DNA from: Sphingomonas sp. SUN039
Lineage (GTDB): Bacteria > Pseudomonadota > Alphaproteobacteria > Sphingomonadales > Sphingomonadaceae
Direction: 5' to 3'
DNA: 64,000 nt
Assembly: GCF_024758725.1 (NCBI RefSeq)
Contig: NZ_CP096972.1
Span: 478,001 to 542,000 of the forward strand
Part shown: positions 19,888-39,277 of the stretch, one piece after another
Layout: every line of letters starts with the position of its first letter
Position numbering within the stretch: the stretch's first letter is position 1
Position numbers and translations under genes: made by a program
Notes under the pieces: generated by a model
What the model saw: the letters and a program-made list of their open reading frames with translations, nothing else
Database searches by the model: none
Told to the model about the DNA's origin: nothing

Positions 19888-19927
19888 GGTTTCTCCTCGG
19901 GGCGGCGCAGGGGCCGCGTCGGCTGCC

Positions 19928-21539: not shown

Positions 21540-21805
21540 ATCCTTTCAAGAACTCAACCGTCTGCGGCTCTTGCGTCAAAATTAGCAGTTCGGCGACACG
21601 CGATGCGAGCGATGCGAGCGATGCGGCGATGGGTGCGCGACTTCGCAGTGGGCGAAGGTCTGTAGGGAAACGCCGAGGGCGGTTTTTTCGTTTGCGCATC
21701 GCTACGATTGAGCAAATATTGAAACGGAGGAAGCGGAGTCGATTTCGACTGCGGAGACATCGAATTTCCTCGGAAGTTCTAATAAAAGTTGCAGGGGGAA
21801 ATGTA

Positions 21806-23155: not shown

Positions 23156-23186
23156 AATCGCGGCGAATGCTGCGCCGGACTGGCTG

Positions 23187-25898
23187 TTAGCCTTCGCTCG
23201 GCAGCGTTCGCAATGACCCGGCGATAACCCGAGCAACGGCAGCGCGGCGATCCCGTGCTTCGGTAATGCCGACACGGGTTTTCGACACTTTGACCTTGTA
23301 TCCGCGCACGGTTGTTTCGGTTGGGGGGACAAATAGCGCATCAAGCGTTTCGGCGAACGCATCGGGTGTCACATACTCAATCTTTGCCAGTTCTTCGTCC
23401 GATAGGGTGATATTGGCAGCGTCTTCGATGGCGCGCAGGCGCTTGGCGTCAGTGGCAATCGCAAAGACACGGCTGAAACCACCATCCAGACATTTAGCAA
23501 GGTTGTGCGCTTCATATGGCGCTTTGGACGTAACCGAGATTTCACAGGCAAGCGCAATGCCGTCGCGATACAAGGCGACATCGACACTGCCGCCTTCGAC
23601 CGGCTGCTCGATCACAGCGCGAAAGCCCCGTTCCTCGGCAATGCCTTTGATTAGGTGTTGGACGTAGCGATGTTGCGGCCCGCCCTTGCCAAGCTCGCTT
23701 GTGGTCGGTCCGATCCCATCGGGCGTGAATTCGACCGGCTCGGGAAGTGGCTCGATGCCACGCTCTGTTGGGGTCGGCGGCACTGTATCGAGAGGTGGGG
23801 AAGGGGGTGACGGCGCTTGCGTCACCGGTTCGGTCGTCGCTTTCGGAATGCTGATGGGTGCAAAATCGACGATATCGGCGCGCGTCCCGCAATATCGCTT
23901 GCGATTCAAGGCAAGCAGCGCCGCGTAGGATTCTTCGGCCATGATCGGCTGTCGTTCGACAAAGCCCAGTGGCACTGACAGCCGGATAGCTTGAGGCGTC
24001 GCGTGTTTCAGCCAGACCGCGAACTCGCTGCGATCACCCTTGCGCCGCATGTCCTCGATGAAGTCGGTCGTGGTGCGAAGCTCGCCCGCAAGCGTTCGGG
24101 CATCCTTGTTCGACACACCGCCCACGCATTTGAAACTGGTATTGGAAAGTAAGCTCGAACGCAGTCCCGTCGAGAGCTGGTCGAGCGTTTGATGCGCCAA
24201 GGTCAGCGACACCCGGTATTTACGGGCTTGCGAGAGGATCGTTTCAATTGAGTCGTCGAAATACTCCTGCGCCTCGTCGATATAGACAAAGGTGGGCGTT
24301 CGCTCGCTTGCCTTCACAGTCGAACGCTCAAGCGCGGCTTGGGCGAGCATGGCGATGAAGAAGCGTCCCAATAGGCTGCTGCCATCGGATTTGAGCATGT
24401 CCTTGGCCGTATTGACGAGGATGATTTTGCCCGATTGGAGTGCTGCGAACAAATCGAGCTTGTTGGCCGTCTGCGCGAACATGCGCTCGAAGGCCGGGGT
24501 CGAAAGCACACCCCATAGGCGCTTGAGGATCTGTTTTTTGGTCGCGGCAAAGGACGGATGGAAGAACTCGGTGGCGAAGAAATAGCGCGCCGACCCGTCG
24601 AGCTTGTCCATATGTTCTTTGAACGGTCGGCCATCCTCCATTAGCTGCATGAGCGTGTGGATCGTCGCGTCGGGGATGGTGAGCATCAACCGCGCCAGAT
24701 AGCGAAAGATGACGCCCTGCTTCTGGGTTAGCTCCGCACCGAGCATCTCACCGAAAAAGGTTTCGTAGAGTTCGATAACGCCGTTCAACACCCGCTCGCG
24801 GTCGGCAGCATCGTATCCGTCCACCCGCTTGGTGTTCGTTGCAAACAGATTGAGCGACGCGGGGTAGTCGACATCGGACGGGTCGATCAAAACGAGGCGC
24901 TCAGCAAGCGAGTTCGGTGCGAGGGGATCGAACAGGTCGAGCCGCACTAGCTTGTTGATAAGGTCGCCTTGGCTGTCGATGACGACAACCGATCGCTCGT
25001 CGCTTTGCGCCTTCCGTAGGTCGGCATAGATCATTCGCTGCATCAACTGGGTCTTTCCGTGCCCGGTGCCGCCGACGATGTGGCAATGTTCGAAGCGCGC
25101 CTCGTCAGAAACGTGGAACGGCACCGGCAACCGCAGCAATTTCAGGAAAGGCGTGTCAGCAAAATAGAGTTCGACCAATTCGTCGAGCGATTTTCCTGAC
25201 ATGTCGCGGTGGGTCGGGTGCTTCAATCGCTCGGCGCGTTCGTGCGGGTTGTCAGTTGGGCTAAATCCCGACGCCACCATAAGGTTGCGGGTGAGGGTGC
25301 GCTGTAGATCGTCGAATAGCCCGTATCGTATCGTGTCGTCGTCATACGGAAACAGCATGATGCTGCTCAGAAGCTCATGGGGGTCTTCGACCATTTCGAT
25401 CAAAGGCACCCCAAAGGCATCGTCGCTCCAGGGCGAAAAGCACGGCTCGGGAAGGGCAGCAAAGACGCTTTCGTAGAGGGAGGTGAAGCGCCTGCCGACG
25501 ATACCCAGCAAATAGTCGGGGTCGCTGATCCAGCGTTTGCGTCGTTCGATCATGGCGCGGAAGTTCACCGCCACCTCAAGATCGCTCTCGATGCTCTCCC
25601 ACAATGCGGCGACCGGCATGATATCTTCGCGCCGCAATATGGCATCGCTTGCCATATAGAGTTCGACCAAGATTTCGGTCGCGGGCGCGCGCTTGACGCT
25701 GTCGGTTGCGTCACTGAGCCATTTGGCGACAAATCCCTCGGGCGGAGTCTCGGCGAACACCGATGTGTGCCAGCGCTCTTGCACACTATCCCATGCTGCG
25801 CGGGTATCGCGAAGCTCGGTGCTTCGAGGATTGGCACTCAACAGCGATTTGAGATTGCCCCATGCCACCTCAGAGTTCCAAGACCTCCTCGCCGCCAA
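23187..25898 (-). CDS. HerA/TraG-type DNA-translocase ATPase with C-terminal PD-(D/E)XK-like domain
   Basis: The 903-residue product has an N-terminal region of about 260 residues without known motif, a motor with Walker A GGTGHGKTQL (about 275-284) and Walker B TFVYIDEAQEY (about 537-546), a proline-rich linker, and a C-terminal domain with QPVEGGSVDVALYRDG then IALACEIS (about 766-786). The D...ExS pattern fits PD-(D/E)XK nucleases with Ser replacing Lys. It resembles conjugative coupling ATPases but no relaxase is nearby. DNA mobilisation or defence are both possible. Confidence 0.75.
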   Translation of the reverse strand: MAARRSWNSEVAWGNLKSLLSANPRSTELRDTRAAWDSVQERWHTSVFAETPPEGFVAKWLSDATDSVKRAPATEILVELYMASDAILRREDIMPVAALWESIESDLEVAVNFRAMIERRKRWISDPDYLLGIVGRRFTSLYESVFAALPEPCFSPWSDDAFGVPLIEMVEDPHELLSSIMLFPYDDDTIRYGLFDDLQRTLTRNLMVASGFSPTDNPHERAERLKHPTHRDMSGKSLDELVELYFADTPFLKLLRLPVPFHVSDEARFEHCHIVGGTGHGKTQLMQRMIYADLRKAQSDERSVVVIDSQGDLINKLVRLDLFDPLAPNSLAERLVLIDPSDVDYPASLNLFATNTKRVDGYDAADRERVLNGVIELYETFFGEMLGAELTQKQGVIFRYLARLMLTIPDATIHTLMQLMEDGRPFKEHMDKLDGSARYFFATEFFHPSFAATKKQILKRLWGVLSTPAFERMFAQTANKLDLFAALQSGKIILVNTAKDMLKSDGSSLLGRFFIAMLAQAALERSTVKASERTPTFVYIDEAQEYFDDSIETILSQARKYRVSLTLAHQTLDQLSTGLRSSLLSNTSFKCVGGVSNKDARTLAGELRTTTDFIEDMRRKGDRSEFAVWLKHATPQAIRLSVPLGFVERQPIMAEESYAALLALNRKRYCGTRADIVDFAPISIPKATTEPVTQAPSPPSPPLDTVPPTPTERGIEPLPEPVEFTPDGIGPTTSELGKGGPQHRYVQHLIKGIAEERGFRAVIEQPVEGGSVDVALYRDGIALACEISVTSKAPYEAHNLAKCLDGGFSRVFAIATDAKRLRAIEDAANITLSDEELAKIEYVTPDAFAETLDALFVPPTETTVRGYKVKVSKTRVGITEARDRRAAVARVIAGSLRTLPSEG

Positions 25899-26259
25899 AG
25901 GTCGCGGCGGCGTCGAGCACCTGCTTGAAGGTTGCTGCTGCCTCTTTGATCTGCCCCTCGACGGCGAGCATTTCCATGATGTCCTTGCACTCGATCTTCT
26001 TGCCGTTGGTGAGGTCGCTCACCTTCACGGAGATGTTCATGGAAGCCAGCACGATGTTTGCGGCAACGGCGGCCGTGAAGCCCATCACGCCCGTGCCTTT
26101 GGCCCGCGTGTCGCTCCTTTCATAAAGCAGGGTGTCGCCGAGCTTGTATCGCGCGATATGTTCGCGCTCGGCATCCGTGATCTCGGCCCGAACCTCAAAC
26201 ACGAACATAGCCTTGCCCATAAGGCTGGATTTTTGGCTACGGCGAATGAGCAGCTTCAT
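25870..26259 (-). CDS. Hypothetical partner of the translocase-nuclease
   Basis: The 129-residue product shows no known domain: EVRAEITDAEREHIARYKLG, LYERSDTRAKGTG, one Ala-rich helix and an acidic C-terminal helix. It overlaps the start of the 903-residue ATPase gene by 29 bp, so the two are translationally coupled and probably act together. Confidence 0.65.
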   Translation of the reverse strand: MKLLIRRSQKSSLMGKAMFVFEVRAEITDAEREHIARYKLGDTLLYERSDTRAKGTGVMGFTAAVAANIVLASMNISVKVSDLTNGKKIECKDIMEMLAVEGQIKEAAATFKQVLDAAATFGGEEVLEL

Positions 26260-26289
26260 GGTTTTGTCCCCCCGGATTTTAGATGAAAG

Positions 26290-26553
26290 CTATATGGTCA
26301 CGTCCTTGGGTAATTGGCTTGCAATGCGCTCGAACAGCGCGCGCGGATCGCAGCCAAGCGCGCGGGCAATGACGTAAAACTCGATCACGTCGATCCGACG
26401 TTCCCCACGCTCGATATAGGAAACGAACGGCTGTGGTCGCCCTAAGCGCCTTGCCAGTTCAAGCTGGGTCACACCCGCAGACTTCCTTGCCGAGACGAGC
26501 ACGTCGAGCAGCACGGCATATGCGGGAGTGAACACAGATTTCGGCACACGCAC
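26290..26553 (-). CDS. XRE-family helix-turn-helix regulator (copy 1)
   Basis: The 87-residue product has one XRE domain: SARKSAGVTQLELARRLGRP, FVSYIERGERRIDVIEFYVI. There is no ATG in frame near the domain; GTG 26553 or GTG 26547 are the likely starts. It lies 30 bp upstream of the 129-residue gene on the same strand. It is clearly related to the XRE protein at 28198-28461, which precedes the second ATPase. Confidence 0.75.
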   Translation of the reverse strand: MRVPKSVFTPAYAVLLDVLVSARKSAGVTQLELARRLGRPQPFVSYIERGERRIDVIEFYVIARALGCDPRALFERIASQLPKDVTI

Positions 26554-26646
26554 CTTGGGACAGGTGAAATTGAGCCACTTCCGATAGATACGATCTTCGG
26601 ATATATGATATTCATATACTTTGGTCTGATGCGGGGGTTGTCGGAT

Positions 26647-26988
26647 ATGAATGCACGTCACCTTGTTGCCATCGCAGCGGCTTCGTTCTCGACGATAGCG
26701 CTCGCTGCCAGTCCTAAAGCGGCGACGATTCAGATGGTGACGATCTCCGACGTCGGTCGGCCACATACCGTCATCGACGGTGCTTGTGCGGCGGCAATGT
26801 ATCCGCCGATGACCATGGCGGATGGGTTCGATAAGACGCTGAACAATGCACAGTCGGCCTTGGCCGATGTCGCCAAGCGCAACGGGGCCGATGCCGTGGT
26901 CGGTATGACGATTTCGTGGGAGACGCCCAATTCGGTCGGCGCGAAGGGAAGGGTGTTGGTCTGCGGAACGCTGGTGAAGTTCAAATAG
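26647..26988 (+). CDS. Small exported protein, possibly YbjQ-like
   Basis: The 113-residue product has a signal peptide (HLVAIAAASFSTIALAAS) and a compact domain with VTISDVGRPHTVID and LADVAKRNGADAVVGMTISW. The AKRNGADAVVG stretch resembles YbjQ-type folds, but this is tentative. It lies between two leftward genes and overlaps the end of the TraG-like gene by 8 bp. Confidence 0.55.
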   Translation: MNARHLVAIAAASFSTIALAASPKAATIQMVTISDVGRPHTVIDGACAAAMYPPMTMADGFDKTLNNAQSALADVAKRNGADAVVGMTISWETPNSVGAKGRVLVCGTLVKFK

Positions 26989-28144
26989 CGCCCGGTGCAA
27001 ATGTCCGACCACTAAACGCCCTGCTTGGTGTCCCGTCGATCATCAGCTTGATATAGAAGGCATGGTTGGGCAGATTGAGCAGATCGAGAACGTCGAAGGT
27101 CGGCTGAAACTCGCGAGCTAGAACGCTGGCATCCCCCGGCCCCACTCGAAAAGATACGAGCGTCCCTGCGTTACCCAGCACCGAATGTCGCACGTCGTCG
27201 TCGAGCTGATGGAGATACTGGTGTGCGACGACCAAACCCAAGCCCACCTTCCTCATTTCCGGCATCATGTTGGCGAAGGCGAGCGTGGTGAACGTCTGGA
27301 ACTCATCGACATACAGGAAGAACGGACGACGCTCGGATATGAACGTCTCTGATCGGCTGAGTGCTGCCAGTCCGATCGTTGCCACCATAATGCTACCGAG
27401 AATGTTGGCGCTGTCCTCACCCATCCGTCCTTTGGCGAGATTCACGATCAAGATGCCGCCGGTGTCCATAACGGAGCGGAAGCTGATGGGGATTTCAGGT
27501 GCGACCAATGCCCGATACAATCGTGGATCGGTAAGGAGCGCACCGAGCTTGTTCTGAATCGGTGCGACCATCTCCGCGCGCAAACGATCCGGTAGCTGTT
27601 CAAACTCGTCAAGCCAGAAGCGACGCACCACGTCGCTCCTAATCCCGCGCACCACCCCCTGTCGAAATGTCTTGTCGCCGTAGAGGCGGAGAACATCGGG
27701 AAGGACAGAACCGTCGCGCTCGATCAAGGCATAGAGGGAGTTGCGAAGGACGTGTTCCATGCGAACGCCCCAAGCATCGCCCCATAGCTTCTTCATGGCG
27801 TCGAGAAGACCGTTAACCGCCAGCGGTATCTTGTCCTCGCGCACCCGACGTAGCGGGTTGTATCCATAGGGCTGATGGCGTGCTGCGGCGTCCAGATAGA
27901 TAAACGGGCGTCTGCTCAAGCTGGCGGCATCCCGCATCCGCTCAGCAAGGTCGCCATGTGGATCAATGAGGGCAAACCCTCGGCCATGCTCAAGATCGGA
28001 TCGCGCCAGCGTCTCGATCAGCGTCGATTTCCCGACGCCGGTCTTTCCCAGCATATACATGTGCGACAGCCGGTCGGTCTGTTTAATTCCGAAGCGCGTG
28101 AACCGGTTGCGGGAGTTGGTTTCGGCGAAATAGGATATGTCCAT
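26981..28144 (-). CDS. TraG/VirD4-type DNA-translocase ATPase
   Basis: The 387-residue product has Walker A GKTGVGKSTLIE (about 33-41), DPHGDLAERM, and Walker B FFLYVDEFQTF (about 274-281) followed by EMRKVGLGLVVAHQYLHQL. This is the type IV secretion DNA-binding ATPase fold without an N-terminal membrane anchor. Shorter than usual coupling proteins (often 500-700), it looks like a soluble motor. An XRE gene lies upstream at 28198-28461. Confidence 0.8.
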   Translation of the reverse strand: MDISYFAETNSRNRFTRFGIKQTDRLSHMYMLGKTGVGKSTLIETLARSDLEHGRGFALIDPHGDLAERMRDAASLSRRPFIYLDAAARHQPYGYNPLRRVREDKIPLAVNGLLDAMKKLWGDAWGVRMEHVLRNSLYALIERDGSVLPDVLRLYGDKTFRQGVVRGIRSDVVRRFWLDEFEQLPDRLRAEMVAPIQNKLGALLTDPRLYRALVAPEIPISFRSVMDTGGILIVNLAKGRMGEDSANILGSIMVATIGLAALSRSETFISERRPFFLYVDEFQTFTTLAFANMMPEMRKVGLGLVVAHQYLHQLDDDVRHSVLGNAGTLVSFRVGPGDASVLAREFQPTFDVLDLLNLPNHAFYIKLMIDGTPSRAFSGRTFAPGAI

Positions 28145-28176
28145 CGGGCCATTGTGCGCGGACGCAGCCACACTGA

Positions 28177-28196
28177 CACGGGGGCAGAATATCCGC
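28177..28196. repeat. 20-bp repeat, copy near the TraG-like gene start
   Basis: Bases 28177-28196 match 31451-31470 at 18 of 20 positions (shared CACGGGGGCA and AATATC). One lies between the XRE gene and the TraG-like gene, the other upstream of ardC, so it may be an operator. Confidence 0.5.
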
Positions 28197-28197
28197 T

Positions 28198-28461
28198 CTA
28201 TGGCTGGCCTTCATACAACGGACGCAGAATCTCGTCAGGCGCGATCTGGAGCGCCCGGCAGAATCTCACGAATTCGTACACATCAAGACGTCGCTGACGC
28301 CGCTCGATTTTGCTGATCGCCGATTGGGTGTCGCCGAACATCGCCCCGAGGTCGGCTTGCGTGATGCCGAGTTCCTGCCGCCGCGCTATCAGCCGGTCGA
28401 TGATGTCGATGTACGGCTGCTCGAAGGCGGACTTGCGTGAATACGGCATAGTCACGCCCAT
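28198..28461 (-). CDS. XRE-family helix-turn-helix regulator (copy 2)
   Basis: The 87-residue product has one XRE domain: RRQELGITQADLGAMFGDTQ, AISKIERRQRRLDVYEFVRF. ATG 28461 or ATG 28449 may be the start. It shares the pattern G-TQ--L, S-IER--RR-DV-EF with copy 1 at 26290-26553, so the two are paralogues, each upstream of an ATPase. It likely controls the TraG-like gene. Confidence 0.8.
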   Translation of the reverse strand: MGVTMPYSRKSAFEQPYIDIIDRLIARRQELGITQADLGAMFGDTQSAISKIERRQRRLDVYEFVRFCRALQIAPDEILRPLYEGQP

Positions 28462-28557
28462 TCGCAGGCCATTTTAGAATAGTGCAAAATAGACTATTGA
28501 CTTGCTTTCGAGCTGCGCTGAGCATTCGCAATGGGAACAGATGGGTGGGGAAGGCGG

Positions 28558-28992
28558 ATGGGTAAGGTGTTGCGATCTGGAACGACGCTGGTTGGCGTCC
28601 TCGTCCTTGGAGCCTGTTCGGGGGCCAGTGGGCTTAGCGCCGCCGACAAGACGGGGATCATGGCCGACGCCAAGGCGCGCCTCCTTGCCAGAAAATGGCA
28701 GTCTCAGTTGTTTCAGATGAGTATGTGTTCGGACGTCTTTTCGGTCGGCGATCCGCAAATTGTCGACACGACCCTCGGGAAGGACACGGGGAAGGTGAAG
28801 ATGATCATTCCCATAATCGTCACCAACCCTGAAACGCATTTTGGTCAGCAGACGGCACCGGATAAGGCGTGCTACGGGTTCGCTCACCCAGGTTGGAATA
28901 TCAACGAACCCTACAACGTCACGTACGAGTTCCAGATTGAGCATTGGGAATCGGGCTGGCGCGTATCGCAGATACAAGCCAACGGGTTCTGA
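28558..28992 (+). CDS. Lipoprotein of unknown function
   Basis: The 144-residue product has a lipoprotein signal with lipobox VLGAC (TLVGVLVLGACSG). The mature part has no recognised domain; it holds three cysteines and ends YEFQIEHWESGWRVSQIQAN. ATG 28558 follows GGAAGG. It is divergent from the XRE gene. Confidence 0.65.
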   Translation: MGKVLRSGTTLVGVLVLGACSGASGLSAADKTGIMADAKARLLARKWQSQLFQMSMCSDVFSVGDPQIVDTTLGKDTGKVKMIIPIIVTNPETHFGQQTAPDKACYGFAHPGWNINEPYNVTYEFQIEHWESGWRVSQIQANGF

Positions 28993-29043
28993 TCCCCGAC
29001 AATCGTCAAAATGGCAGTCTCCCGTAAGCGCGGCTGCCGGTCT

Positions 29044-29457
29044 TCAAAGGCTGTTCGACGGCCCTCTGATCGTTGTCGTCTCGGTAGTGACGCAATCTCC
29101 GTCGCGTTCCTCAAGTTTGGTTGCAAGGCGCGAAAACATTGTCCGAAGTGCTTTTCGCGTCAGCCTCCACGTGTGGTGCCACAGAAAATCAAAGGCGCGA
29201 CCACTCAATTCCCAAAACTTGATAACGGCCTCGGCGCAGCAGACAATGAACCTTGCGATATAGGGTGTAGCGTGCACAATGACGGTCACTGAACCAAGCC
29301 AGAACAGGAACTGGCAAGCTTGATCTGTAAGTGCCAACCACTCTGGCATAGAACCGTGCCCAGCAAGCATATGCGCTAGGTCGGATGTCAACAGGGCATA
29401 GTGGCTAAGGCCGGAAAAGAGGGTTAGTATTATGGCATGCGGGGCATTTCGACTCAT
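29044..29457 (-). CDS. Hypothetical membrane protein
   Basis: The 137-residue product has two likely membrane helices (HAIILTLFSGLSHYALLTSD; QFLFWLGSVTVIVHATPYIA) and a basic, helical C-terminal half. GGAG lies upstream of ATG 29457. It converges on the lipoprotein gene. No family recognised. Confidence 0.5.
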   Translation of the reverse strand: MSRNAPHAIILTLFSGLSHYALLTSDLAHMLAGHGSMPEWLALTDQACQFLFWLGSVTVIVHATPYIARFIVCCAEAVIKFWELSGRAFDFLWHHTWRLTRKALRTMFSRLATKLEERDGDCVTTETTTIRGPSNSL

Positions 29458-29463
29458 GGCCAA

Positions 29464-29866
29464 TCTCCTAGACTGACTGTTGTTGACTAGCCCCGCTAGG
29501 CTGGGGGCGCGGCGCCAACCGCAACCCAGTCACCTAGACCCCTGATTTTCCGAGCTATGGCGCGGAAGATTGGGGGTCTTTCTTTGGTGTGGAAAACACA
29601 AACCGCCACCCAAAGAGAAGCAAGGCTTCTAGTTGCTCGCACGTCCCGCAGGGCGAGCGTTGGAGTGGCGCTGGGCGGGGCCAGCCGGTATGCCAAGATG
29701 GCACCATCTGGTGGCGATACCCCCCATTTACCACCAGATGTAGAAAGCTATCCCCAAATTTTTTGATGAAGGCAATCGGACATTTGGATGAGTCTGAAAA
29801 CGATACTATCGTCCAAATACGGGGCTAGGCTGGTACTGCCAGCGATACTGTAAATGGGGGGAATAC
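29464..29866. other. Non-coding stretch with small inverted repeats
   Basis: No convincing gene. Short open frames here have no recognisable product. It holds a 10-bp inverted repeat at 29705-29714 / 29731-29740 (CATCTGGTGG, CCACCAGATG, 16-nt loop) followed by an A/T-rich run, and GC-rich short repeats at 29490-29515. A transfer origin or regulatory region is possible but not shown. Confidence 0.45.
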
Positions 29867-30421
29867 GTGCCAAAGGCCAAGCAGCGACTGCATCGGCGAA
29901 TCGGTCGATGGAAGCCTATAACGAAAGGTATGGAGCGAAAAAACCCCGACTCGATTCGGAAGTTCTTTTTTGACGTGATCGCGCATGACTACGGCAAGGA
30001 TACGGTTCCGTTTGCGGATGCGATCCAGTGGGCCATTTCGCGAATAACTCCTAACGAGCAGCGCCTTTATCACTACCCACGAACGGCGGAGTGGCTGTAC
30101 CTAGCGACGAGAAACGAAAAGCATATTCACTATGGCGATATTGAAATTGCGGCTCGGAGTATGGGTTTGCCGACGGCGCTTATCCTTACCTACACACGTA
30201 TTTTCTCCGAGTTCCAGTCTGACGAAAAGACGAAGGCGATGAAGTCCCTTCGCCTTCTCGAGGCCTTCAAAGCGTCGATTGAAGCACTGATTGCCATCGT
30301 GTCGGCTCATGCTGCCAGTCCGACCGTGGGCGATACTCGGCTGTCGTTTGAAGATTTCGATGCGATGAGGAAGGCATATAGAACGGCTTTTGATCTGCCA
30401 TTGTTTGACCAACCCGAATGA
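29867..30421 (+). CDS. Hypothetical soluble protein of the element
   Basis: The 184-residue product starts at GTG 29867 after GGGGGAATAC and is basic at the N-terminus. Segments include IRKFFFDVIAHDYGKDTVPF and HYGDIEIAARSMGLPTALIL, which look like a helical, possibly DNA-binding, protein. No family recognised. It ends against the terminator at 30425-30448. Confidence 0.6.
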   Translation: MPKAKQRLHRRIGRWKPITKGMERKNPDSIRKFFFDVIAHDYGKDTVPFADAIQWAISRITPNEQRLYHYPRTAEWLYLATRNEKHIHYGDIEIAARSMGLPTALILTYTRIFSEFQSDEKTKAMKSLRLLEAFKASIEALIAIVSAHAASPTVGDTRLSFEDFDAMRKAYRTAFDLPLFDQPE

Positions 30422-30424
30422 AAA

Positions 30425-30448
30425 ACAGCCTCCCGCTAGGGAGGCTGT
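30425..30448 (-). terminator. Rho-independent terminator of ardC
   Basis: ACAGCCTCCC (30425-30434) and GGGAGGCTGT (30439-30448) form a perfect 10-bp stem with loop GCTA. On the minus strand the stem is followed by TTTTT, so it ends the ardC transcript, with the stop codon just 4 bp before it. Confidence 0.88.
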
Positions 30449-30451
30449 AGG

Positions 30452-31351
30452 TCACCATTCTCCCGCTGCCACAATCTCATGCAGATAGGTGGCAGCCTGA
30501 TTGGCAAGCCGGGAGGCTGTAAAAATCGCACGGGTATCGTTTTTGAGCAGTTGCAGCCAATGCCCGACGTAAGCGGCATGGTCGGGACGAGGCGTGTTGC
30601 TCACGCCCAGGTCGGCACATAGGAATGCTGCACCGATCTCGGCCACCAATTCCTCGGCGGCAACGTCTTCCATCTTCAATCGTTCACCGAACCTATCGAG
30701 ACGGTGCTTTGCCCCGGCCCAGTGTACGAGTTCGTGGAGGACCGTTGCGCCGTATGCCTGAGTGGCGGAGCTTGTCGGCGTGTCGATGAAACGGCCGATC
30801 TCGGGCATTTCGATATAGTCGCCGGGGATATTATAGCGAGCCATCGTGCCGATATGCACGTCGGCCTTACTGGCCTGCACGAACAACGCCACCGATTCCA
30901 TGATCTCGCCGGTTCCCGGTTGACGCCTCTCCTCCGGCGGCGTCCAACCTTCGACTTGATCGGCATTGAACACCCTTGATGCTCGGGCAAAGAGCCGAAT
31001 GGAAGGCTCGTCCCCTTGGGCTTTCGACTCCTCCTCGATCCGTTTGAAGAAGACGATGGTGGAACCCCTCTCGCCCTTGGCGACCTGAGCGCCCACCTCC
31101 TGCCACTGACGGTATGTTCCCCAATACCCGCTGCGATATCCCTGCTCATACGCCTGCGCCCAAAGCGCGATGACGTTGATGCCGTGATATTCCATATGCG
31201 TATGAGCGTTCTGCGGCTTTGCGATGGCAACACCGTTTCCATGCCACGGCATAACGAACTCACCGGCTCCCGCTTCGATTGCGGCAACGATAGTGTTGGT
31301 GACGGCACGATATACATCGAACCGTTCACTCGAAAGAACATCGGATTTCAT
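30452..31351 (-). CDS. ardC: ArdC-like antirestriction / ssDNA-binding metalloprotease-domain protein
   Basis: The 299-residue product has the ArdC N-terminal domain (FVMPWHGNGVAIAKPQNAHT, INVIALWAQAYEQGYRSGYW, GAQVAKGERGSTIVFFKRIE) and a C-terminal zincin motif TVLHELVHWAGAKHRLDR (about residue 205). ArdC proteins protect incoming plasmid DNA from restriction. ATG 31351 has the strong site AGGAGG. Its presence points to transfer of this DNA between cells. Confidence 0.9.
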   Translation of the reverse strand: MKSDVLSSERFDVYRAVTNTIVAAIEAGAGEFVMPWHGNGVAIAKPQNAHTHMEYHGINVIALWAQAYEQGYRSGYWGTYRQWQEVGAQVAKGERGSTIVFFKRIEEESKAQGDEPSIRLFARASRVFNADQVEGWTPPEERRQPGTGEIMESVALFVQASKADVHIGTMARYNIPGDYIEMPEIGRFIDTPTSSATQAYGATVLHELVHWAGAKHRLDRFGERLKMEDVAAEELVAEIGAAFLCADLGVSNTPRPDHAAYVGHWLQLLKNDTRAIFTASRLANQAATYLHEIVAAGEW

Positions 31352-31450
31352 ATTTTCCTCCTGCACAAGCGGGAGCGTCCCAAGGATTGAGGCGCTCCCC
31401 ATTGCGAGGGAGGTTCCGAGGTTCAGTGTGGGGCAGGGGGCCGATGTCGG

Positions 31451-31482
31451 CACGGGGGCACAATATCGGCTGGGCCGATGAT
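31451..31482. promoter_or_regulatory. Repeat and palindrome upstream of ardC
   Basis: Bases 31451-31470 match 28177-28196 (18/20). Overlapping it, AATATCGG, a 5-bp spacer and CCGATGAT (31462-31482) form a palindrome with the same 8-5-8 layout as 35023-35043. It sits about 100 bp upstream of the ardC start and 12 bp outside the left 33-bp inverted repeat. Confidence 0.5.
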
Positions 31483-31494
31483 CTGGTGCGGGTC

Positions 31495-31527
31495 GAGGGA
31501 CTTAGGGACGTAAGGGACTTATTCCGG
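31495..31527. repeat. Left 33-bp inverted repeat
   Basis: The arm contains three spaced copies of AGGGAC. It differs from the right arm's reverse complement at one base (T for G). It lies 75 bp upstream of the small gene at 31602. Confidence 0.85.
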
Positions 31528-31601
31528 GGAACATATCGACCTCACCATTTTCGGCGTTATCGGTTGTCCCGATAATCTGCCGCCGTGCAGCATTCGATCT
31601 G

Positions 31602-31808
31602 GTGCATGACACTGAGAGCGTCATGCTCATTGCCGACGAACACCTCGACGATTTCATTTGCCGGTATGAACGAGCGTTCGGCGACCGCCTGACCCGTGAA
31701 GATGCCCGTCCGATCGCTACTGGCCTCGTCGATCTCTACCGTCTCATCACGCGGCCTTTGCCAGATACGGACTCTCATCCGGTGCAAACCGATCCCGAAG
31801 CAGCTTAA
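31602..31808 (+). CDS. Small hypothetical protein inside the recombinase cassette
   Basis: The 68-residue product includes [20 protein letters not shown] and [20 protein letters not shown], a pattern I recall from small proteins on sphingomonad mobile elements. ATG 31602 or ATG 31623 may be the start. Its last 62 bp overlap the 3' end of the recombinase gene on the other strand. Confidence 0.55.
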
Positions 31809-33396
31809 GACTACGCAGCTCGATTTCCCTGTTCGGGTCTGCGAGGCTGTCCGATATGTCCTTGAGAAGCCGGTTTCCGGTCGCCATCGTCTGGTCAGAA
31901 AAAGTTCTAACATCCTCTACGACAGTGCACCGACGTGGAATTTGCCCAAAAAATGGGTTCACCGAGAAGGGTTTCATGGCCTCAACGCTCAGTATTTTGC
32001 CCTTAAGTAAAAAGTTCGAACCGACCGTTTTGATGATTAATTGACGATCACTTTTTGTACCCTGCAAAAACCAATCCACGGCGCATCTGCTGAACGAAAT
32101 CACGTCGCGCAAAAGTTCGAACCGATTTTGTGGATCTGGTTCGGCAAGCCCTTTTTGAAGCGTTTCACCCTCGGATGCGAGCCGTGCTTTCTCAAGGACA
32201 AACTCGTCATCGGACAGCATGCGACGCAAACGCATGGCAGTGAGTTCGCGTATTTGCGACGCATTTTCGTCCATAGCGGCCAAGCATGATCGACGCTGAG
32301 TTTCCAATGTTTCTTGATTGGAAGCCCGTTCGCGCTCCAACGCATCGAACGCCCATTCTTCAACATCGCGATCAATGGCGAGGGATGACAAGAAGGCGAT
32401 AAACTGCTGTTCGAGCACATCCTGTTCGACCGAGCGTTCCACGCACTTCGGCCCTAACCCGCGTTTGGTGCAGTGATAATAAGTGTAGCGTGAGCCATAT
32501 CTGTTCGTCTTTTGCTCGGCAGTCACCATCATGCCGCACGTTCCACAGCGAATGAGGCCGGTATATAAAAAGTCGTGACGGGAAGATTTGGCAATGCCGT
32601 CACGCTTCAAGAGCCACTGGACCCGCGCGAACTCGTCTTTGGTGACGACCGGCTGATGCTGGCCGGGATATATCTGTCCCTTCCAGAGTATCTTGCCCGC
32701 ATAGAATGGATTGCCCAGCATTTTGTAGATCGTGGACAGAGCGAGCGGTTTGCCGCCGCTGCGTCGTTTGCGGGGAGAAACAAAACCCCATTCGTCGCGG
32801 GCAATGAGGGCGATCTGACGCGGCGAAAGCACGCCCGTCAGGAACATGTCGAATATTCGTCGCACCAGCGCAAATCTATCTGCATCTGGCAGGATCGTGC
32901 GCGTCACCGGACAATTGAGATAGCCGATTGGTGCATGGTTGGGTCGCCAGCCCTTTTCGAGCTTCGTCTGGTTGCCGCGTTTGACGTTTTCCGACAGGGC
33001 ATCGCTGTAGTATTTGGATTGCCCGAACATGATCGACAGCATGAATTTGCCCTGCGAGTTGTTCTCGAAGGTGTAGGTCGAGAATTTCAGGTCATGCAGC
33101 ACGCCGCAATCGAGCAGATAGATAATTTGCCCGCCGTCGATGGAGTTGCGCGCCAGTCGGTCGGGTGCCCAAGCGACGATGCCCTCGGCCTCGCCACGCT
33201 CGATCCGTGCGAGCATCTGGGCGAATATCGGTCGTCCGGGGGACTTGGCACTCCTTGATTCCACGAAGGTCTGGACGACCTCGATGTCATCCCGGTCGCC
33301 GAACGAACGTAGCATCGCTTGTTGTTGGGATTCGAGCGAAAGGACTTGTCGATCCTCAGCCTCGGACGATTTTCGGCAATAAAGAAAATATCTCAT
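31747..33396 (-). CDS. Large serine recombinase (second copy in the element)
   Basis: The 549-residue product has the resolvase catalytic domain ([20 protein letters not shown] with the nucleophilic Ser; [38 protein letters not shown]), the recombinase domain, a zinc ribbon ([13 protein letters not shown] ... [13 protein letters not shown]) and a coiled coil (about 345-420). ATG 33396 is 5 bp from the right inverted repeat with no clear ribosome site, so its promoter must lie in or beyond the repeat. It probably acts on the flanking repeats. Confidence 0.9.
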
Positions 33397-33401
33397 AGGG
33401 G

Positions 33402-33434
33402 CCGGAATACGTCCCTTACGTCCCTAAGTCCCTC
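33402..33434. repeat. Right 33-bp inverted repeat
   Basis: Reverse complement of 31495-31527 with one mismatch. It ends 5 bp before the recombinase start codon and so covers the place where its leader should be. Confidence 0.85.
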
Positions 33435-33673
33435 CGAACCGTCGCTATGAATCCGCGCGGACGTTGTGCAAGTTAGGAGGAATATTGGGAAAATAGGGAG
33501 TAGGGAGTGCATGGGTAGGTAACGCCGGAATCATACGCTTTGAATCCGATTCACGCGAATCGCGCTATCCCCATCGTGCGACGAACAGACAGCGAGCAAC
33601 AGGCGTCACAATACCTCTCATACCGGTATTGTGACGCCTGTCGTTAAGGTGCCGTCCCCCTCATGCTGGTGGA
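33435..33673. promoter_or_regulatory. Intergenic region with a 16-bp perfect inverted repeat
   Basis: Arms 33600-33615 and 33625-33640 are perfect reverse complements with a 9-nt loop (core GGTATTGTGACGCC). Located 33 bp upstream of the ATPase gene start, it looks like an operator or a replication-related site. A similar half (ATATTGTGACG) follows the same gene at 35038. No gene seen. Confidence 0.6.
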
Positions 33674-35035
33674 ATGACACCTGCCAAAACCGATACCACG
33701 ATACCGACTATTTCGCGGGTCTGCCCCGATGGGACGATGGTCGAACTGCTATATGACGCCGATACGGCAACCACCGCACTTGCCGTCTGTGCACCTGATG
33801 GCTCGATAACGGTCGAGGCCCAGGTCGATCTTCCGACCGGCGAGCGCCTCATCCCGTATGCCGCCACCAATAACCTGCTGACCTCGGGATGTGTGCTGCT
33901 GCCGTCAGCGGTCGGCGAGTGCGTATCGAAGGCGGAACTGATCGGTGACATCAAGGCGTTCATCCACCGTCATGTCGATCTGCCAGAACTGTACGAAGAC
34001 ATCGCCGTTCATTACGTTCTGCTGACATGGGTGCACGATGCGTTCAACGAACTGGGTTATCTCAGGTTTTTAGGAATGCCCGGTAGCGGCAAGACCCGCC
34101 GCCTGCTCGCCATAGGATCGCTCTGCTACAAGCCCTTCTTTGCATCGGGGGCATCCACGGTTTCCCCTATATTCCATGTGCTCGATGCCTTTGGTGGCAC
34201 CCTCATACTCGACGAAGCCGATCTACGGTTTTCGGACGCCACTGCCGATCTGACCAAAATTCTCAACAACGGCACGATGAAGGGTTTGCCGGTGCTCCGC
34301 ACCATGACCAACAGGTATCGCGAACTCAATCCGCAAGCGTTCAAGGTCTTCGGCCCCAAGCTCGTCGCCATGCGTGCACCCTTTGCGGACGATGCCCTTG
34401 AAAGCCGTTTCATCACCGAATCTACCGGTAACGCGCCACTGCGTCCCGACATTGATATCCATCTGAGCGATACGATGAAGTCTGATGCGCTGCTGCTTCG
34501 TAACAAGCTGTTGGCATGGCGATTTCAGGCCCGACACGCGGTCGGCCCTGACCCTCGTCGACTGGTCGACGGTCTGTCTCCACGGGGTAACCAGTCGGCT
34601 TTGGCACTGCTGTCATTGATCGACGACGAACCGCTGCGAACTAAGATCGCGGACGACCTCGTGGCTTGCGAGGCGCGTGTGACAACAAAACGCGCCGCCT
34701 CAGCGGACGCCACGATGGTCAAGGTCTTGCGACTGATGTTCCGCGTGGCACCGACACCGTATCTGACGCTCGCTGACATCACCGCGCAGTTCAACGATGC
34801 GATGGCCGAGCATGGTGCTGCACCAATCGAGAGCAAGGCAACGGGCTGGTTGGTGCGCGGGAAGCTCGGACTGGTCACAACCAAGACGCGAGGCGTCTAT
34901 GTCATCCCGCAAAGCGAACGCGGTAAAATCGACGCGCTCGCGGACAGGTTTGGTTTGCCGGCCGAAATGGTGATAGCGGCACCGGAGATTGCGGCGCTGG
35001 GATTTCTTGCGCGAAGCGCAAAAATATCGGCCTGA
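33674..35035 (+). CDS. P-loop ATPase, helicase/primase-associated type
   Basis: The 453-residue product has Walker A LGMPGSGKTRRLL (about 135-143) and Walker B GTLILDEADLRF (about 178-185), then an Arg-finger-like stretch, and a C-terminal winged-helix-like part (LTLADITAQFNDAMAEHGAA). Similar ATPases act with phage or plasmid replication proteins. No primase domain is visible in the N-terminus. It could be the element's replication helper; function not proven. Confidence 0.65.
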   Translation: MTPAKTDTTIPTISRVCPDGTMVELLYDADTATTALAVCAPDGSITVEAQVDLPTGERLIPYAATNNLLTSGCVLLPSAVGECVSKAELIGDIKAFIHRHVDLPELYEDIAVHYVLLTWVHDAFNELGYLRFLGMPGSGKTRRLLAIGSLCYKPFFASGASTVSPIFHVLDAFGGTLILDEADLRFSDATADLTKILNNGTMKGLPVLRTMTNRYRELNPQAFKVFGPKLVAMRAPFADDALESRFITESTGNAPLRPDIDIHLSDTMKSDALLLRNKLLAWRFQARHAVGPDPRRLVDGLSPRGNQSALALLSLIDDEPLRTKIADDLVACEARVTTKRAASADATMVKVLRLMFRVAPTPYLTLADITAQFNDAMAEHGAAPIESKATGWLVRGKLGLVTTKTRGVYVIPQSERGKIDALADRFGLPAEMVIAAPEIAALGFLARSAKISA

Positions 35036-35055
35036 CCGATATTGTGACGTCTCCC
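35023..35055. promoter_or_regulatory. AATATCGG palindrome after the ATPase gene
   Basis: AATATCGG, 5 bp, CCGATATT (35023-35043) is a perfect palindrome overlapping the ATPase stop codon. The layout matches 31462-31482. It lies 80 bp upstream of the XRE gene at 35124 and may be its operator. Confidence 0.5.
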
Positions 35056-35123
35056 GCGAAAACGGGTGCGACGCGATGATGAATGGAGCGACCGTTTAGG
35101 TCGCAGCCATAATTCCAACCCTT

Positions 35124-35465
35124 ATGCCTCACAAAAATTCTGTGCGCCGTGTCCGTAATCGTTCCGCCCTCACCCAAGAAGAGCTGTGCAATCTGGTCGA
35201 TATATCGCAATCGACGCTTAGCGAGCTTGAGCTTTTTCGAGAGGCGACGAGCCTCGACACCGCACTTGCCCTCCAGGTCGTTTTCGGGACGCAACCCCGA
35301 AAGCTCTTTTCAGTTCTATATGCCCGTATTGAAAACGCCGTAATGGGCCGTGCTGCTTCGCTCGATCAAAAGCTCCGCGACAAAACCGACGCGCGATCAC
35401 TTAGAAAGCTGCGGACGCTCGACGATATGGTCAAGCGCGCGACCTCTCAAACCACCGAGCTATGA
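35124..35465 (+). CDS. XRE-family helix-turn-helix regulator
   Basis: The 113-residue product has an XRE domain (RVRNRSALTQEELCNLVDIS, STLSELELFREATSLDTALA) and a helical tail. It overlaps the next gene by four bases (ATGA), so it is co-expressed with the RuvC-like protein. Confidence 0.8.
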   Translation: MPHKNSVRRVRNRSALTQEELCNLVDISQSTLSELELFREATSLDTALALQVVFGTQPRKLFSVLYARIENAVMGRAASLDQKLRDKTDARSLRKLRTLDDMVKRATSQTTEL

Positions 35466-35980
35466 TGCCAAAGAACTCTCTTATCTTTGCGCTTCATGCC
35501 ACCTCGCGCGGGTTCGGTTATGTCGTCTTTGAAGGCCCGTTCGCGCCTTATGACTGGGGAACGGTCATCGCGCGAGGGGATAAGAACGGCATCTGCTTAC
35601 AGAAACTGGAACGGATGCTGGATCGCTTTCTGCCGGAAACCCTGCTGCTCGAAGATGTCAAAAGTGTCGCCAAGCGAGGCGAACGGATTGCTCGCCTCTA
35701 TAAGGCGATTGCCAGTCTGTGCGTCAGTCGCAACATAGATATCGCCGTTTATACCCTCGGCGACATCAAGGCATGTTTTGCCAGTGTGGGGGCCGTGACC
35801 CGGCAGGAAATTGCCGAAAGTGTTGCCCGCCAGATTGATGCCTTCGGGTATCGAAAGCCAAAACCGCGCAAGGCATGGCAGAGCGAGGATCGGCGCATGG
35901 CAATGTTTTGCGCCGCTGCACTTGTCCTGACCCACTACCAAATGGGTGCGCTAACACTTTTCGACGATCTGTCTCGTTGA
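35462..35980 (+). CDS. RuvC-like (RNase H fold) protein lacking the first catalytic Asp
   Basis: The 172-residue product follows the RuvC layout: strand FALHATSRGFGYVVFEGP at the position of the first catalytic strand, LLLEDVKSV (Glu64) and SEDRRMAMFCAAALVL (Glu142/Asp143). The first acid is replaced by His12, while the later acids and spacing fit. It may bind branched DNA without cutting, or use another residue. Coupled to the XRE gene upstream. Confidence 0.65.
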   Translation: MMPKNSLIFALHATSRGFGYVVFEGPFAPYDWGTVIARGDKNGICLQKLERMLDRFLPETLLLEDVKSVAKRGERIARLYKAIASLCVSRNIDIAVYTLGDIKACFASVGAVTRQEIAESVARQIDAFGYRKPKPRKAWQSEDRRMAMFCAAALVLTHYQMGALTLFDDLSR

Positions 35981-36037
35981 GTGTCCAGAACGGACGATCT
36001 GCGATTGAACGGTACTGACCCGAATGAAGATCAAAAA

Positions 36038-36062
36038 GGGGAGGCGTTTGTTACGCCTCCCC
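36038..36062 (-). terminator. Rho-independent terminator of the retropepsin gene
   Basis: GGGGAGGCGT (36038-36047) and ACGCCTCCCC (36053-36062) form a perfect 10-bp stem with a 5-nt loop. On the minus strand it is followed by TTTTT, and it includes the TAA stop of the leftward gene. Confidence 0.85.
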
Positions 36063-36470
36063 TGACTTCAAAATACGTACACTTGATCCTGCGAGGTGGA
36101 TTTCGGTCTGCCTTAGCAGCCCCATGCCGATATATCCTACGTGTTCTCGCCGCTGTCGTTTCGACGCAGCGCTCGCGTATGGGCAGACGAAAACCTCAAT
36201 CTGCGTCATCTGCTCAAACCAACCAACGTAACCCGATGTGACGAATCCGTTGACGTCGCTACCGTCCATCATCGTTGCAGAACTGATTTGTTGGGTGATC
36301 GGCCAGCCTAGAAGTGACACCCAGTCCTCGAAAACCAACAGCTGAAACGAAGAACCTGTGTCCACCATCAACGGTGATGTGACCGGTTTACCATCGTCCT
36401 TGCCATAGAAAGCAAGTTCGATGAGCGGATGCCCGCGCTGGCTATAGTGACCCGTCTGCGAAACCGACAC
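36051..36470 (-). CDS. Retropepsin-like aspartic protease
   Basis: The 139-residue product has the clan AA active site PLMVDTGSSFQLLVF (Asp37) and a GYIGMGLLRQTEIHLAG stretch typical of the C-terminal part of single-domain retropepsin-like enzymes, which act as dimers. It overlaps the upstream gene by 29 bp, so they are coupled. The neighbour may be its substrate or regulator; this is inference. Confidence 0.75.
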   Translation of the reverse strand: MSVSQTGHYSQRGHPLIELAFYGKDDGKPVTSPLMVDTGSSFQLLVFEDWVSLLGWPITQQISSATMMDGSDVNGFVTSGYVGWFEQMTQIEVFVCPYASAASKRQRREHVGYIGMGLLRQTEIHLAGSSVRILKSGEA

Positions 36471-36945
36471 TTGCAGGCATTCCTACCTGTGTCGTCCATG
36501 ATGGGGTCGTTGCGCCGAAGCGAGCCTCGAAGTTTTCACAGGCCTCGCGCCGTGTTCCGCCAAAAACATATGCCCCCGATTCAGCATCGATGGAAACCCA
36601 CTCACCGAAATGCAGTGGCTCAATCGTAGCTTCTAGTTTCGCATAGTGTTGCTTGGCTTGGCTGGCAACAGCATCCAACCTTTCCCAAAATGCGTTCATG
36701 TCTCTCCTCCCTTCGTCAAGGAGGGGTGCCGTCAAACTCCCTTTGCGGGAGCTGGCAACAGCCCCCACATTTAGCAGTCTCACGGTTCTATTTTTTGGAT
36801 GTTGGTCGCTTGCAAATGCAAACACTCCCAACAGCCCACCTAATACTGTATCAGACGCGCTTACTGATTGCACATAATCGCGCACACGGATCGCTTCGCT
36901 TTTAACTTGTCGTGCTACATTCCAAGCCCTTGTGCGCACTGCCAT
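36442..36945 (-). CDS. DUF5678-like protein coupled to the protease
   Basis: The 167-residue product has a hydrophobic/helical N-terminal part (VLGGLLGVFAFASDQHPKN) and a C-terminal small domain LHFGEWVSIDAESGAYVFGG, TRREACENFEARFG, which matches the DUF5678 pattern. Such proteins are often found beside aspartic proteases (recalled). No clear signal peptide. Confidence 0.6.
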   Translation of the reverse strand: MAVRTRAWNVARQVKSEAIRVRDYVQSVSASDTVLGGLLGVFAFASDQHPKNRTVRLLNVGAVASSRKGSLTAPLLDEGRRDMNAFWERLDAVASQAKQHYAKLEATIEPLHFGEWVSIDAESGAYVFGGTRREACENFEARFGATTPSWTTQVGMPASVGFADGSL

Positions 36946-37324
36946 CTTCAGTCTCCGGCTTTCAGTAGGCTCTGGCCGAAGCAGCGTAGTCTTTCAGACA
37001 TTAAAATGTCTTGCAGAGTCTGGTGAACGGGGGCGTAAGCGACGCTTGCTGCGGCCTGTCGCGCTCAAACATCTGGGTGTCTAGGCAACGAGCCAACGAC
37101 AATCTCCCTAAGTGAACAAATGGTTTATTGGTTACCAAAAAGTTAATCAACCTAGGGTCGGCAGATGGTGCATAACTGTCGGTAGGCTGCCCCTTGGATG
37201 GGCTGCTCCCCCTCGAATTTGAGTGCCATTTCGAGTTTTGACGGCGTGATGTCGTAGGCAAAAACCTCCTTGCCCCCGACTCCGATCCTCCTAAGATTCC
37301 TGTTCAAAGCGGGAAGGGCGGCAT
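36946..37324. other. Leader region of the element's serine recombinase
   Basis: No firm gene. On the minus strand a frame of 86 codons (37001-37261, TTG start) has an AAGGAGG site just upstream, but its product is low-complexity and unrecognised. On the plus strand GGGAAGGG precedes the recombinase ATG 37325. The stretch is AT-richer than its surroundings around 37090-37160, as expected of a promoter. Confidence 0.4.
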
Positions 37325-39277
37325 ATGCCAAGCGACGGTACACCCAAGCGTGTCGGTATCTGGATCAGAGTTTCGACTGAGGATCAGGTGAGGGGCGAAA
37401 GCCCCGAACACCACGAACGCAGAGCGCGTGCATATGCCGAAGGTCGCGACTGGCAGGTCGTCGAAGTGTATCGTCTCGATGCCGTGAGCGGCAAGGCGGT
37501 GATGCATCACAGCGAAGCCAAGAGGATGCTCGCCGACATCAAGCGCGGGCATATTACGGGGCTGGTCTTCTCGAAGCTCGCGCGCCTTGCGCGCAACACC
37601 CGTGAACTTCTCGAATTTTCAGAACTGTTCCGCGCGTCGAACGCCGACCTGATCTCGCTGCAAGAAGCCATTGACACAAGCTCTCCCGCCGGTCGCTTGT
37701 TCTTCACGATGATCGCCGCAATGGCGCAATGGGAACGCGAGGAAATTGCCGACCGTGTGCGGGCCTCGGTGCCGGTGCGCGCCAAGATGGGCAAGCCGCT
37801 CGGCGGTGGTGCCACGTTTGGGTATCGCTGGGTCGATAGGCAGTTGGTGCCTGATCCTAAGGAAGCGCCGGTTCGCGCGCTCCTCCATGAACTGTTCGTC
37901 GAACATCAACGCAAGCGCACGGTCGCCCGCATCCTCAACGAACGCGGATATCGCACCCGCAACGGGTCGAAGTTTTCCGATACCACAGTTCGCAACCTGC
38001 TTGATGACCCCACCGCAAAGGGTCTGCACCGCGCCAATTACACATACAGCGACGACCGCACTAAATCATGGGCGCTCAAGCCCGAAACCGAGTGGGTGTA
38101 TCATCCGGTCGAGGCGATTGTGTCCGAAAAGCTGTGGGACGAATGCCAGGGCATTCTCCAAGCGGTAGCAGCCCGACGAAAGCCAATCACACGGCGCAAT
38201 GTCCAGTTGTTCTCGGGCTACGCCTTTTGTCAGTGTGGCGGCAAAATGATGGTGCCGTCGAACTCGCCAAAATACATCTGCGACACCTGCCGCAATAAAA
38301 TTCCCGTCGCCGATCTGGAAGCAGTGTTTCAGGAACAGCTTCGCCATTTCCTCATCGAGCCTGATGAAATCGAAGCGCACAACCGCGCCGCGCAAGAGGC
38401 AATGCGCGACAAAGAACGCCTGCTCGAAACTCTCGTCGCCGAGCGCAAAAAGATTGAAGCTGACGAACGGGTGATATTCGAGCTTCACGCCAGTGGACAA
38501 ATTCCGACCGAAGATTTTGGTCGCCACCATCGCCCGCTTAGCGAGCGCATAGGGCAACTGTCCGAGGAACTTCCCAAGGTTCAAGCGCAACTCGATCTAC
38601 TGAAAATCGCCTCCGTCTCGCGGAACGAATTGATGGGAGAGGCGCGTGATCTGGCTGAAAGATGGAACGACCTTCCACACCTTGAAAAACGTCAAATCAT
38701 CGAAGCGATCACCGACCGCATCGTTATCGGAAAGGAGGATGTCGAGATCATGCTTCTCCACCTCCCTTTTCAAGCAACTGACGGCATAGACGCAACGCGG
38801 CTATGCCGCTGCGGCCACCTCGGCGATCCGGCTTTGGCGTGCAGCCGTGCGCCGAAATGCGCGGCGGACTATCAGGCGAAAGTGTCGGGGCCGATGCTCG
38901 ACCGCATCGATCTGCACGTCGAAGTGCCTGCGGTCAGCGCCGCCGATCTCGTCCTGCCGCCGCCGTCGGAAGGTTCTGCGGAAGTGCGTGCCCGGGTGGC
39001 GGCGGCGCGCGCGGTGCAGTCGGCACGTTACGGCGAAGGCGGTCCGCGCACCAATGCCGAAGCCGATGGCGAAGTCCTCGAAAAGCACGCAACTCCCGAC
39101 GAGCCCGGTCGTCGCCTGCTGGCGCAAGCCGCCGAAGCGATGCGGCTGTCCGCGCGTGGCTATACCCGCATCCTGCGCGTCGCCCGCACTATTGCCGATT
39201 TGGCTGGCAGCGAGGGTGTGGGCCGCATACACATAGCCGAGGCGCTGAGTTACCGACGGCAGGCGCCAAGGAATTGA
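37325..39277 (+). CDS. Large serine recombinase fused in frame to the ComM C-terminus
   Basis: The 650-residue frame is chimeric. Residues 1-493 are the recombinase: catalytic RVSTEDQVRGES (Ser17), LVFSKLARLARNTRELLEF, AAMAQWEREEIADRV, recombinase domain, a short zinc-ribbon (AFCQCGGKMM ... YICDTCRNK), a coiled coil (about 350-460) and the usual end IIEAITDRIVIGKEDVEIML. Residues 494-650 are ComM from CRCGHLGDP. The crossover TG starts codon 494. The recombinase has no stop of its own, so its C-terminus depends on what lies beyond the att site. Confidence 0.88.
   Translation: MPSDGTPKRVGIWIRVSTEDQVRGESPEHHERRARAYAEGRDWQVVEVYRLDAVSGKAVMHHSEAKRMLADIKRGHITGLVFSKLARLARNTRELLEFSELFRASNADLISLQEAIDTSSPAGRLFFTMIAAMAQWEREEIADRVRASVPVRAKMGKPLGGGATFGYRWVDRQLVPDPKEAPVRALLHELFVEHQRKRTVARILNERGYRTRNGSKFSDTTVRNLLDDPTAKGLHRANYTYSDDRTKSWALKPETEWVYHPVEAIVSEKLWDECQGILQAVAARRKPITRRNVQLFSGYAFCQCGGKMMVPSNSPKYICDTCRNKIPVADLEAVFQEQLRHFLIEPDEIEAHNRAAQEAMRDKERLLETLVAERKKIEADERVIFELHASGQIPTEDFGRHHRPLSERIGQLSEELPKVQAQLDLLKIASVSRNELMGEARDLAERWNDLPHLEKRQIIEAITDRIVIGKEDVEIMLLHLPFQATDGIDATRLCRCGHLGDPALACSRAPKCAADYQAKVSGPMLDRIDLHVEVPAVSAADLVLPPPSEGSAEVRARVAAARAVQSARYGEGGPRTNAEADGEVLEKHATPDEPGRRLLAQAAEAMRLSARGYTRILRVARTIADLAGSEGVGRIHIAEALSYRRQAPRN
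38785..38820. other. attR junction of the comM element
   Basis: Element sequence (GACGCAACGCGGCTA) meets comM sequence (CCGCTGCGGCC) at TG 38804-38805. Joining this element end to the left end gives arms GCAACGCGGC and GCCGCGTTGC around a 6-base spacer TATGTG whose middle is the crossover TG. Confidence 0.82.
38804..39277 (+). pseudogene. comM: comM 3' fragment
   Basis: The last 157 codons of comM: the Cys-rich part CRCGHLGDPALACSRAPKC, the conserved KVSGPMLDRIDLHVEVPAV and the C-terminal helical domain (SARGYTRILRVARTIADLAG). It has no start of its own and is in frame with the recombinase. The 5' part is at 13934-14970. Confidence 0.9.

Follow-up and report, generated by a model that had tools for sequence, protein, structure and literature searches.

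Large serine recombinases that appear to lose a helix-turn-helix domain when their element integrates into comM

The element that interrupts comM, a natural-transformation gene, in Sphingomonas sp. SUN039 most probably encodes one protein made up of a large serine recombinase, a linker specified by the attP site and a helix-turn-helix (HTH) part, and removal of the HTH by integration would leave an enzyme whose behaviour depends on its state; we put the probability of this reading at about three in four. That attP lies inside a single recombinase-HTH gene which integration cuts is supported at the sequence level by the existence of natural uncut genes and by the agreement of the reading frame across attP in 40 recombinases. 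The make-up of the enzyme thus seems to be coupled to the state of integration through an attP placed in the linker between recombinase and DNA-binding domain.

The interrupted comM and its recombinase

The window, by which we mean the whole stretch of 64,000 nucleotides analysed here, contains a comM gene split at a TG dinucleotide (14969, 38804) by an integrated element of about 23.8 kb (14971..38805, unstranded). The 5' part of comM, coding for residues 1-345 (13934..14968, +) and identified against uninterrupted comM in genomes of the same genus, is followed by the shared TG of attL (14969..14970, +) and by the right half of attP, TGGCCGCGTTGCC, on the element side (14971..14983, +). At the other end, the left half of attP (38791..38803, +) codes for the end of the recombinase and is followed by the shared TG of attR (38804..38805, +). 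The initial annotation had read the recombinase as running without a stop through the right junction in frame into ComM, and ComM as running in frame into a double HTH at the left junction, with the shared TG starting a codon in both cases, and all of this holds. The recombinase ORF (37325-39277, +; 650 aa) meets no stop before the TG at 38804, which it reaches after 1479 nucleotides or 493 codons (37325..38803, +), and continues in frame into ComM residues 346-502, the 3' part of comM that here serves as the recombinase tail (38804..39277, +); Pfam places Resolvase, Recombinase and Mg_chelatase_C all within this ORF. The ComM ORF (13934-15457, +; 507 aa) reaches the TG at 14969 after 345 codons and stays open in frame for a further 162, which match HTH_31 and HTH_3 in Pfam. 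This double HTH part (14969..15457, +), fused to ComM 1-345 in the chromosome, would be the C-terminal domain of the uncut recombinase, and the protein predicted for the circle would have 493+162 = 655 aa.

When rejoined, the comM of the window is an open frame of 502 aa, and the uninterrupted site is found in two genomes of the same genus with 502 aa (G204) and 511 aa (G310). The two halves match comM with 252 and 49.5 bits, and besides them the window genome holds no second strong comM match, the six others scoring at most 27.8 bits. Rejoining attP yields an inverted repeat that has the shared TG, the sole shared core there, at its centre and GGCAA-N8 and N8-TTGCC as arms; a count by eye over the 13 positions nearest the T/G centre on either side found 11 to be complementary, and a scan also placed the best inverted-repeat centre at T/G. 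The consensus of the attP sites was GGCAA-N8-CA/TG-N8-TTGCC. As judged from these sites, the crossover in the window would occur at a shared 2-bp core in an attP with inverted arms, which is a trait of serine integrases.

The recombinase of the window (P0001) matches PF00239 at 5.7e-32 and PF07508 at 2.1e-16. Residues R15, V16 and S17 are invariant across the 45 rows of the recombinase alignment A3, the serine being presumably the nucleophile, as are C303, C305 and C320; the zinc ribbon match of the window protein, at 14.9 bits, lies below the Pfam cut-off of 25.3. A structure model of the uncut relative L039 (45 rows; mean pLDDT 84.5, pTM 0.43) matched serine integrases in the PDB over the whole model, the DdrO repressor coming up further down as a weak match (E 0.005). 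By catalytic and Recombinase domains, zinc ribbon and coiled coil, the enzyme belongs to the large serine recombinases. While a pTM of 0.43 means that the placement of domains in the model is not reliable, the recombinase is ordered to residue 478, residues 481-518 are disordered and two HTHs occupy 523-640. The att codon of L039, 495, falls inside the disordered stretch, indicating that attP encodes a linker. All recombinase domains precede att, and integration leaves the catalytic protein unsplit.

Relatives, uncut genes and reading phase across attP

A scan of genome contigs gave 125 recombinase relatives, the best 80 of which were kept and, together with the window and L002, made up 82 recombinase loci. 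L002 (genome G368) was the only match besides that of the window itself among 397 genomes of the family at E 1e-60, and a search of 385 genomes of the class with L028 gave two matches, of which one was the window itself and neither extended as far as the HTH. No relatives were found in plasmids and phages at an E limit of 1e-50, nor in viral contigs. In 59 of the 82 loci the frame reads on past the recombinase match into comM without a stop, one of these (L015) having its frame broken inside the recombinase; 55 run antisense into the N-half of comM and four in sense into the C-half. The sense insertions are those of alphaproteobacteria and a separate case in the Bacteroidota, L075. A central CA goes with antisense insertion and TG with sense, although this is no independent test, since the junction patterns demand that match. 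Elements of this one recombinase family occur in many phyla with comM as their main target, those with a central CA lying in the opposite orientation to those with TG.

At the remaining 23 loci no comM was recognised. They include three uncut recombinase-HTH genes and three decayed loci (L023, L046, L064) that retain an uncut attP-like site but whose frames end shortly beyond it; the others lie elsewhere, have decayed or have no clear status. The att centre could be resolved in a minority of these 23. Two candidates were rejected as comM junctions, L039, whose own attP resembles the junction pattern, and L074, where the junction lies beyond the stop, and neither is among the pairs described below. 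At L067, L069, L070 and L072 the core beside comM-like sequence reads GT rather than CA. The recombinase runs into an apparent tRNA gene at L073 and L076, which suggests that the family has other targets. Beside an antisense half in L038, the frame 1328-2929 matches comM residues 1-496, a whole second comM.

The initial annotation had proposed that the circle carries a recombinase-HTH fusion, and a search for free proteins of this kind was successful. Uncut genes, measured stop to stop, were found in L010 (616 aa), L028 (688 aa) and L039 (648 aa), each joining Resolvase, Recombinase and HTH domains within a single frame, and a fourth of 647 aa was found in G459. These genes resemble integrated pairs rejoined at att: L039 is identical to rejoined L029+L085 at 520 of 641 residues without a gap, L010 to L017+L133 at 484 of 600 (4 gap columns), and L028 to L030+L087 at 391 of 644 (15 gap columns). 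On the tree, L039 pairs with integrated L029, L010 with L017, L028 with L032 and L059, and the uncut gene of G459 with L064. Intact comM genes (588, 537 and 512 aa) carrying the target ATGAAYCCNTG are present in the genomes that hold L010, L028 and L039. G459 and G440 also hold an integrated copy (L065 and L048), and the best comM N-domain match in these two genomes lies in frames of 355 and 366 aa. The contig ends of the four uncut loci do not overlap, giving no sign of a circular form, and L039 lies on a contig of 330 kb; the uncut elements therefore sit elsewhere than comM and are not proven to be excised. That uncut genes coexist with intact comM is a hint of some restraint on the full-length enzyme, though these elements may be immobile for other reasons.

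The second line of evidence comes from the HTH ends. A profile of the HTH part (A1) matched 43 of 49 genomes at an E limit of 1e-7 and 20 of 31 at 1e-12. Requiring recognisable comM junctions in one orientation at both ends, which were located without regard to reading frame, gave 46 recombinase/HTH pairs from 40 genomes, while 19 of the 59 comM-adjacent recombinases stayed unpaired for want of an HTH end bordered by a recognised comM junction. All 46 pairs agree in phase across attP with HTH frames open to att (26 in phase 0, one in phase 1 and 19 in phase 2), and all 46 rejoined frames are open; counted by recombinase the agreement is 40 of 40. Some pairs may be false couples, since several HTH ends occur in some genomes. 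On a tree of 44 recombinases (the 40 and the four uncut) the phase label changes six times, with well-supported branches forcing four changes for phase 0 and five for phase 2, and agreement throughout despite such changes means that shifts on one side of attP have been matched on the other. For the 17 pairs that could be placed on a single contig, the two ends share a strand and are separated by about 25-87 kb. Thus the recombinase-HTH frame that had been read across attP in the window is open beyond chance, neither a broken rejoined frame among the 46 pairs nor, among the 59 comM-adjacent recombinases, a stop ahead of comM having come to light.

Genomes with several HTH ends at comM junctions were G413 (L108, L119), G431 (L131, L132), G450 (L147, L148), G449 (L145, L162, L146) and G435 (L086, L088). 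The ends share a contig in G413, G431 and G450, as do two of the three in G449, and these are perhaps tandem arrays at comM; those of G435 are on two contigs.

What the HTH module might do, and other readings

In the proposed scheme the element would encode one protein, comprising a complete large serine recombinase, a flexible linker encoded by attP DNA and a C-terminal HTH module, often of two HTHs. At the sequence level, the two parts form a single open frame in the uncut gene, and recombination with comM at the central dinucleotide severs this gene such that the recombinase keeps all recognisable domains and loses the HTH, the latter coming to lie downstream of antisense comM in most elements and, in the window, fused to ComM 1-345. 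The HTH would make the enzyme behave differently when free and when integrated; it most likely binds the element, at its own promoter or the att region, and when bound may hold the expression or the activity of the recombinase down, or directed, in the free state. Integration would change the enzyme by taking the HTH away, and excision would restore it. The HTH side has dN/dS values of 0.11-0.51 in the 21 finite cases of the 25 pairs listed, with synonymous sites near saturation, and so it must be translated and under selection somewhere; we infer that it is selected as part of the uncut protein, since the uncut gene is the state in which all 40 have an HTH in frame with an upstream gene. No shared operator was found upstream of the recombinase in 88 upstream stretches, some of them duplicates, of which 30 contain inverted repeats against 13.9 in mononucleotide shuffles. 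A bolder proposal, which we advance tentatively, is that of a serine recombinase edited by its own product, in which loss of a regulatory domain would record the integrated or free state of the element and set direction without a separate directionality factor, the module having spread through bacterial phyla with comM as its target.

The HTH could instead be an accessory targeting domain, needed by the uncut enzyme near attP or attB in order to integrate, its loss then stabilising the integrated state as in a one-shot integrase. We regard this as doubtful. It would fit recombinase domains that stay whole after HTH loss, an HTH side whose dN is the higher of the two in 24 of 25 listed pairs, as expected of an element-specific DNA binder, and the excess of integrated over uncut copies (59 against 3 of 82, plus the one in G459). 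However, genome sampling favours integrated copies, and in 3 of 3 genomes the uncut genes sit beside an intact comM, so that the uncut form is not obviously a good integrator. The same coexistence with intact comM would suit an HTH acting as a tethered directionality factor that biases the uncut enzyme against attP x attB and keeps the excised element out, and control of direction by an artificial integrase-RDF fusion has been published (PMC5737554, seen in part). This we hold to be improbable, as the element must integrate at least once using the uncut protein.

A functional role for the ComM swap as such, with both ComM-HTH and recombinase-ComM chimeras acting, is very unlikely, despite both chimeric frames being open in the window and in G368. 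Insertion is antisense in 55 of the 59 comM cases, and the tail gained by the recombinase there has a median of 13 codons from att to stop (range 3 to 427, n=46), which makes any exchange with ComM incidental; this short tail is of non-ComM sequence and reads as arbitrary, with loss of the HTH as the regular event. Of the 40 recombinases with a partner, only those of the window, L002/L110 and L077/L139 show a two-way in-frame exchange with ComM. Other comM insertions in the same frame, for which the initial annotation suggested a search, were found in these two pairs, but the HTH frame of L139 has two stops further on, and the sense insertion L075/L152 is out of the ComM frame, in phase 1. The circle form as a recombinase-HTH fusion lost on integration is hence retained as the cutting of one gene, while a swap of C-termini with ComM as its core event, also put forward initially, is not supported. 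Finally, two neighbouring genes with attP between them, their frames agreeing by accident or by single inheritance, are hardly credible given agreement in 46 of 46 pairs over three phases and six changes on the tree, 0 of 59 recombinases stopping before comM and the existence of uncut one-frame genes, even though 41 of 46 HTH parts have an in-frame TTG no more than seven codons past att, inside the arm of attP, and 8 of 46 show an ATG ahead of codon 28 among the three starts listed first, which would permit a separate start.

Known systems and the contents of the element

Serine integrases are standard tools of genome engineering, and the cause of their direction is a central question. The Int protein of Mx8 is a tyrosine integrase. 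Phage Mx8 (and Mx9) has its attP within the integrase gene, and int acquires a new 3' end upon integration, by which activity is modified and not abolished (PMC6070905, as far as the text seen goes). The present family shares the attP within the integrase frame and the new 3' end, but its enzyme is a large serine recombinase that loses a whole HTH domain, it occurs in many phyla with comM as main target, and it has no match in phages (E 1e-50) or viral contigs. Archaeal suicidal (SSV-type) integrases also carry attP within their gene and are partitioned by integration, and the part of the review consulted describes recombinases that disrupt their own gene as exclusively archaeal (PMC8371274); these are tyrosine recombinases split into inactive parts, whereas the present recombinase stays whole. 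In mycobacteriophage BPs attP lies in the reading frame of the repressor, and integration removes C-terminal residues and changes the fate of the protein (PMC4557955, in the part seen). Here too a protein loses its C-terminal part through an attP inside its frame, with the difference that BPs has attP in the repressor gene and loses a degradation tag, while the present family has it in the recombinase gene and loses a DNA-binding domain. Other mobile elements insert at the orthologous place in comM orthologues of several species (PMC4774983, seen in part); they share the target, and their integrase CF65_00446 can be set beside the present family by target alone.

Within the literature searched (open text, without supplements or catalogues such as PMC10083194), no attP inside a serine recombinase gene was recognised and no account was found of a serine recombinase shedding a DNA-binding domain at integration. 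The earlier remark that no comparable case had been described needs qualifying on account of Mx8, though no serine example came to light in the literature searched. Integrase genes that contain attP have been described before; the shedding of an HTH by a serine recombinase is apparently new, with strong structural evidence and a conjectural mechanism.

The cargo of the window element includes a RadC-like protein (18467-19489, -), a metallo-beta-lactamase-fold protein (21629-23155, +) and an ArdC-like protein (30452-31453, -). A second large serine recombinase of 549 aa is encoded within the element (31747-33396, -), sharing 22% identity over 237 columns with the one at att, and the uncut locus L194 likewise contains two such recombinases, the additional one at 16711-18315. 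Two TrwB/HerA-like ATPases (23187-25898, - and 26981-28171, -) are also matched by the PADLOC model mads_8. Such ATPases likewise lie near two of the uncut recombinases (L196:11636-14716 and 15327-16502; L195:16090-19143), and L195 and L196 have an NA37 gene in common near the uncut recombinase, where L194 has instead a lanthionine-type dehydratase and a cyclase.
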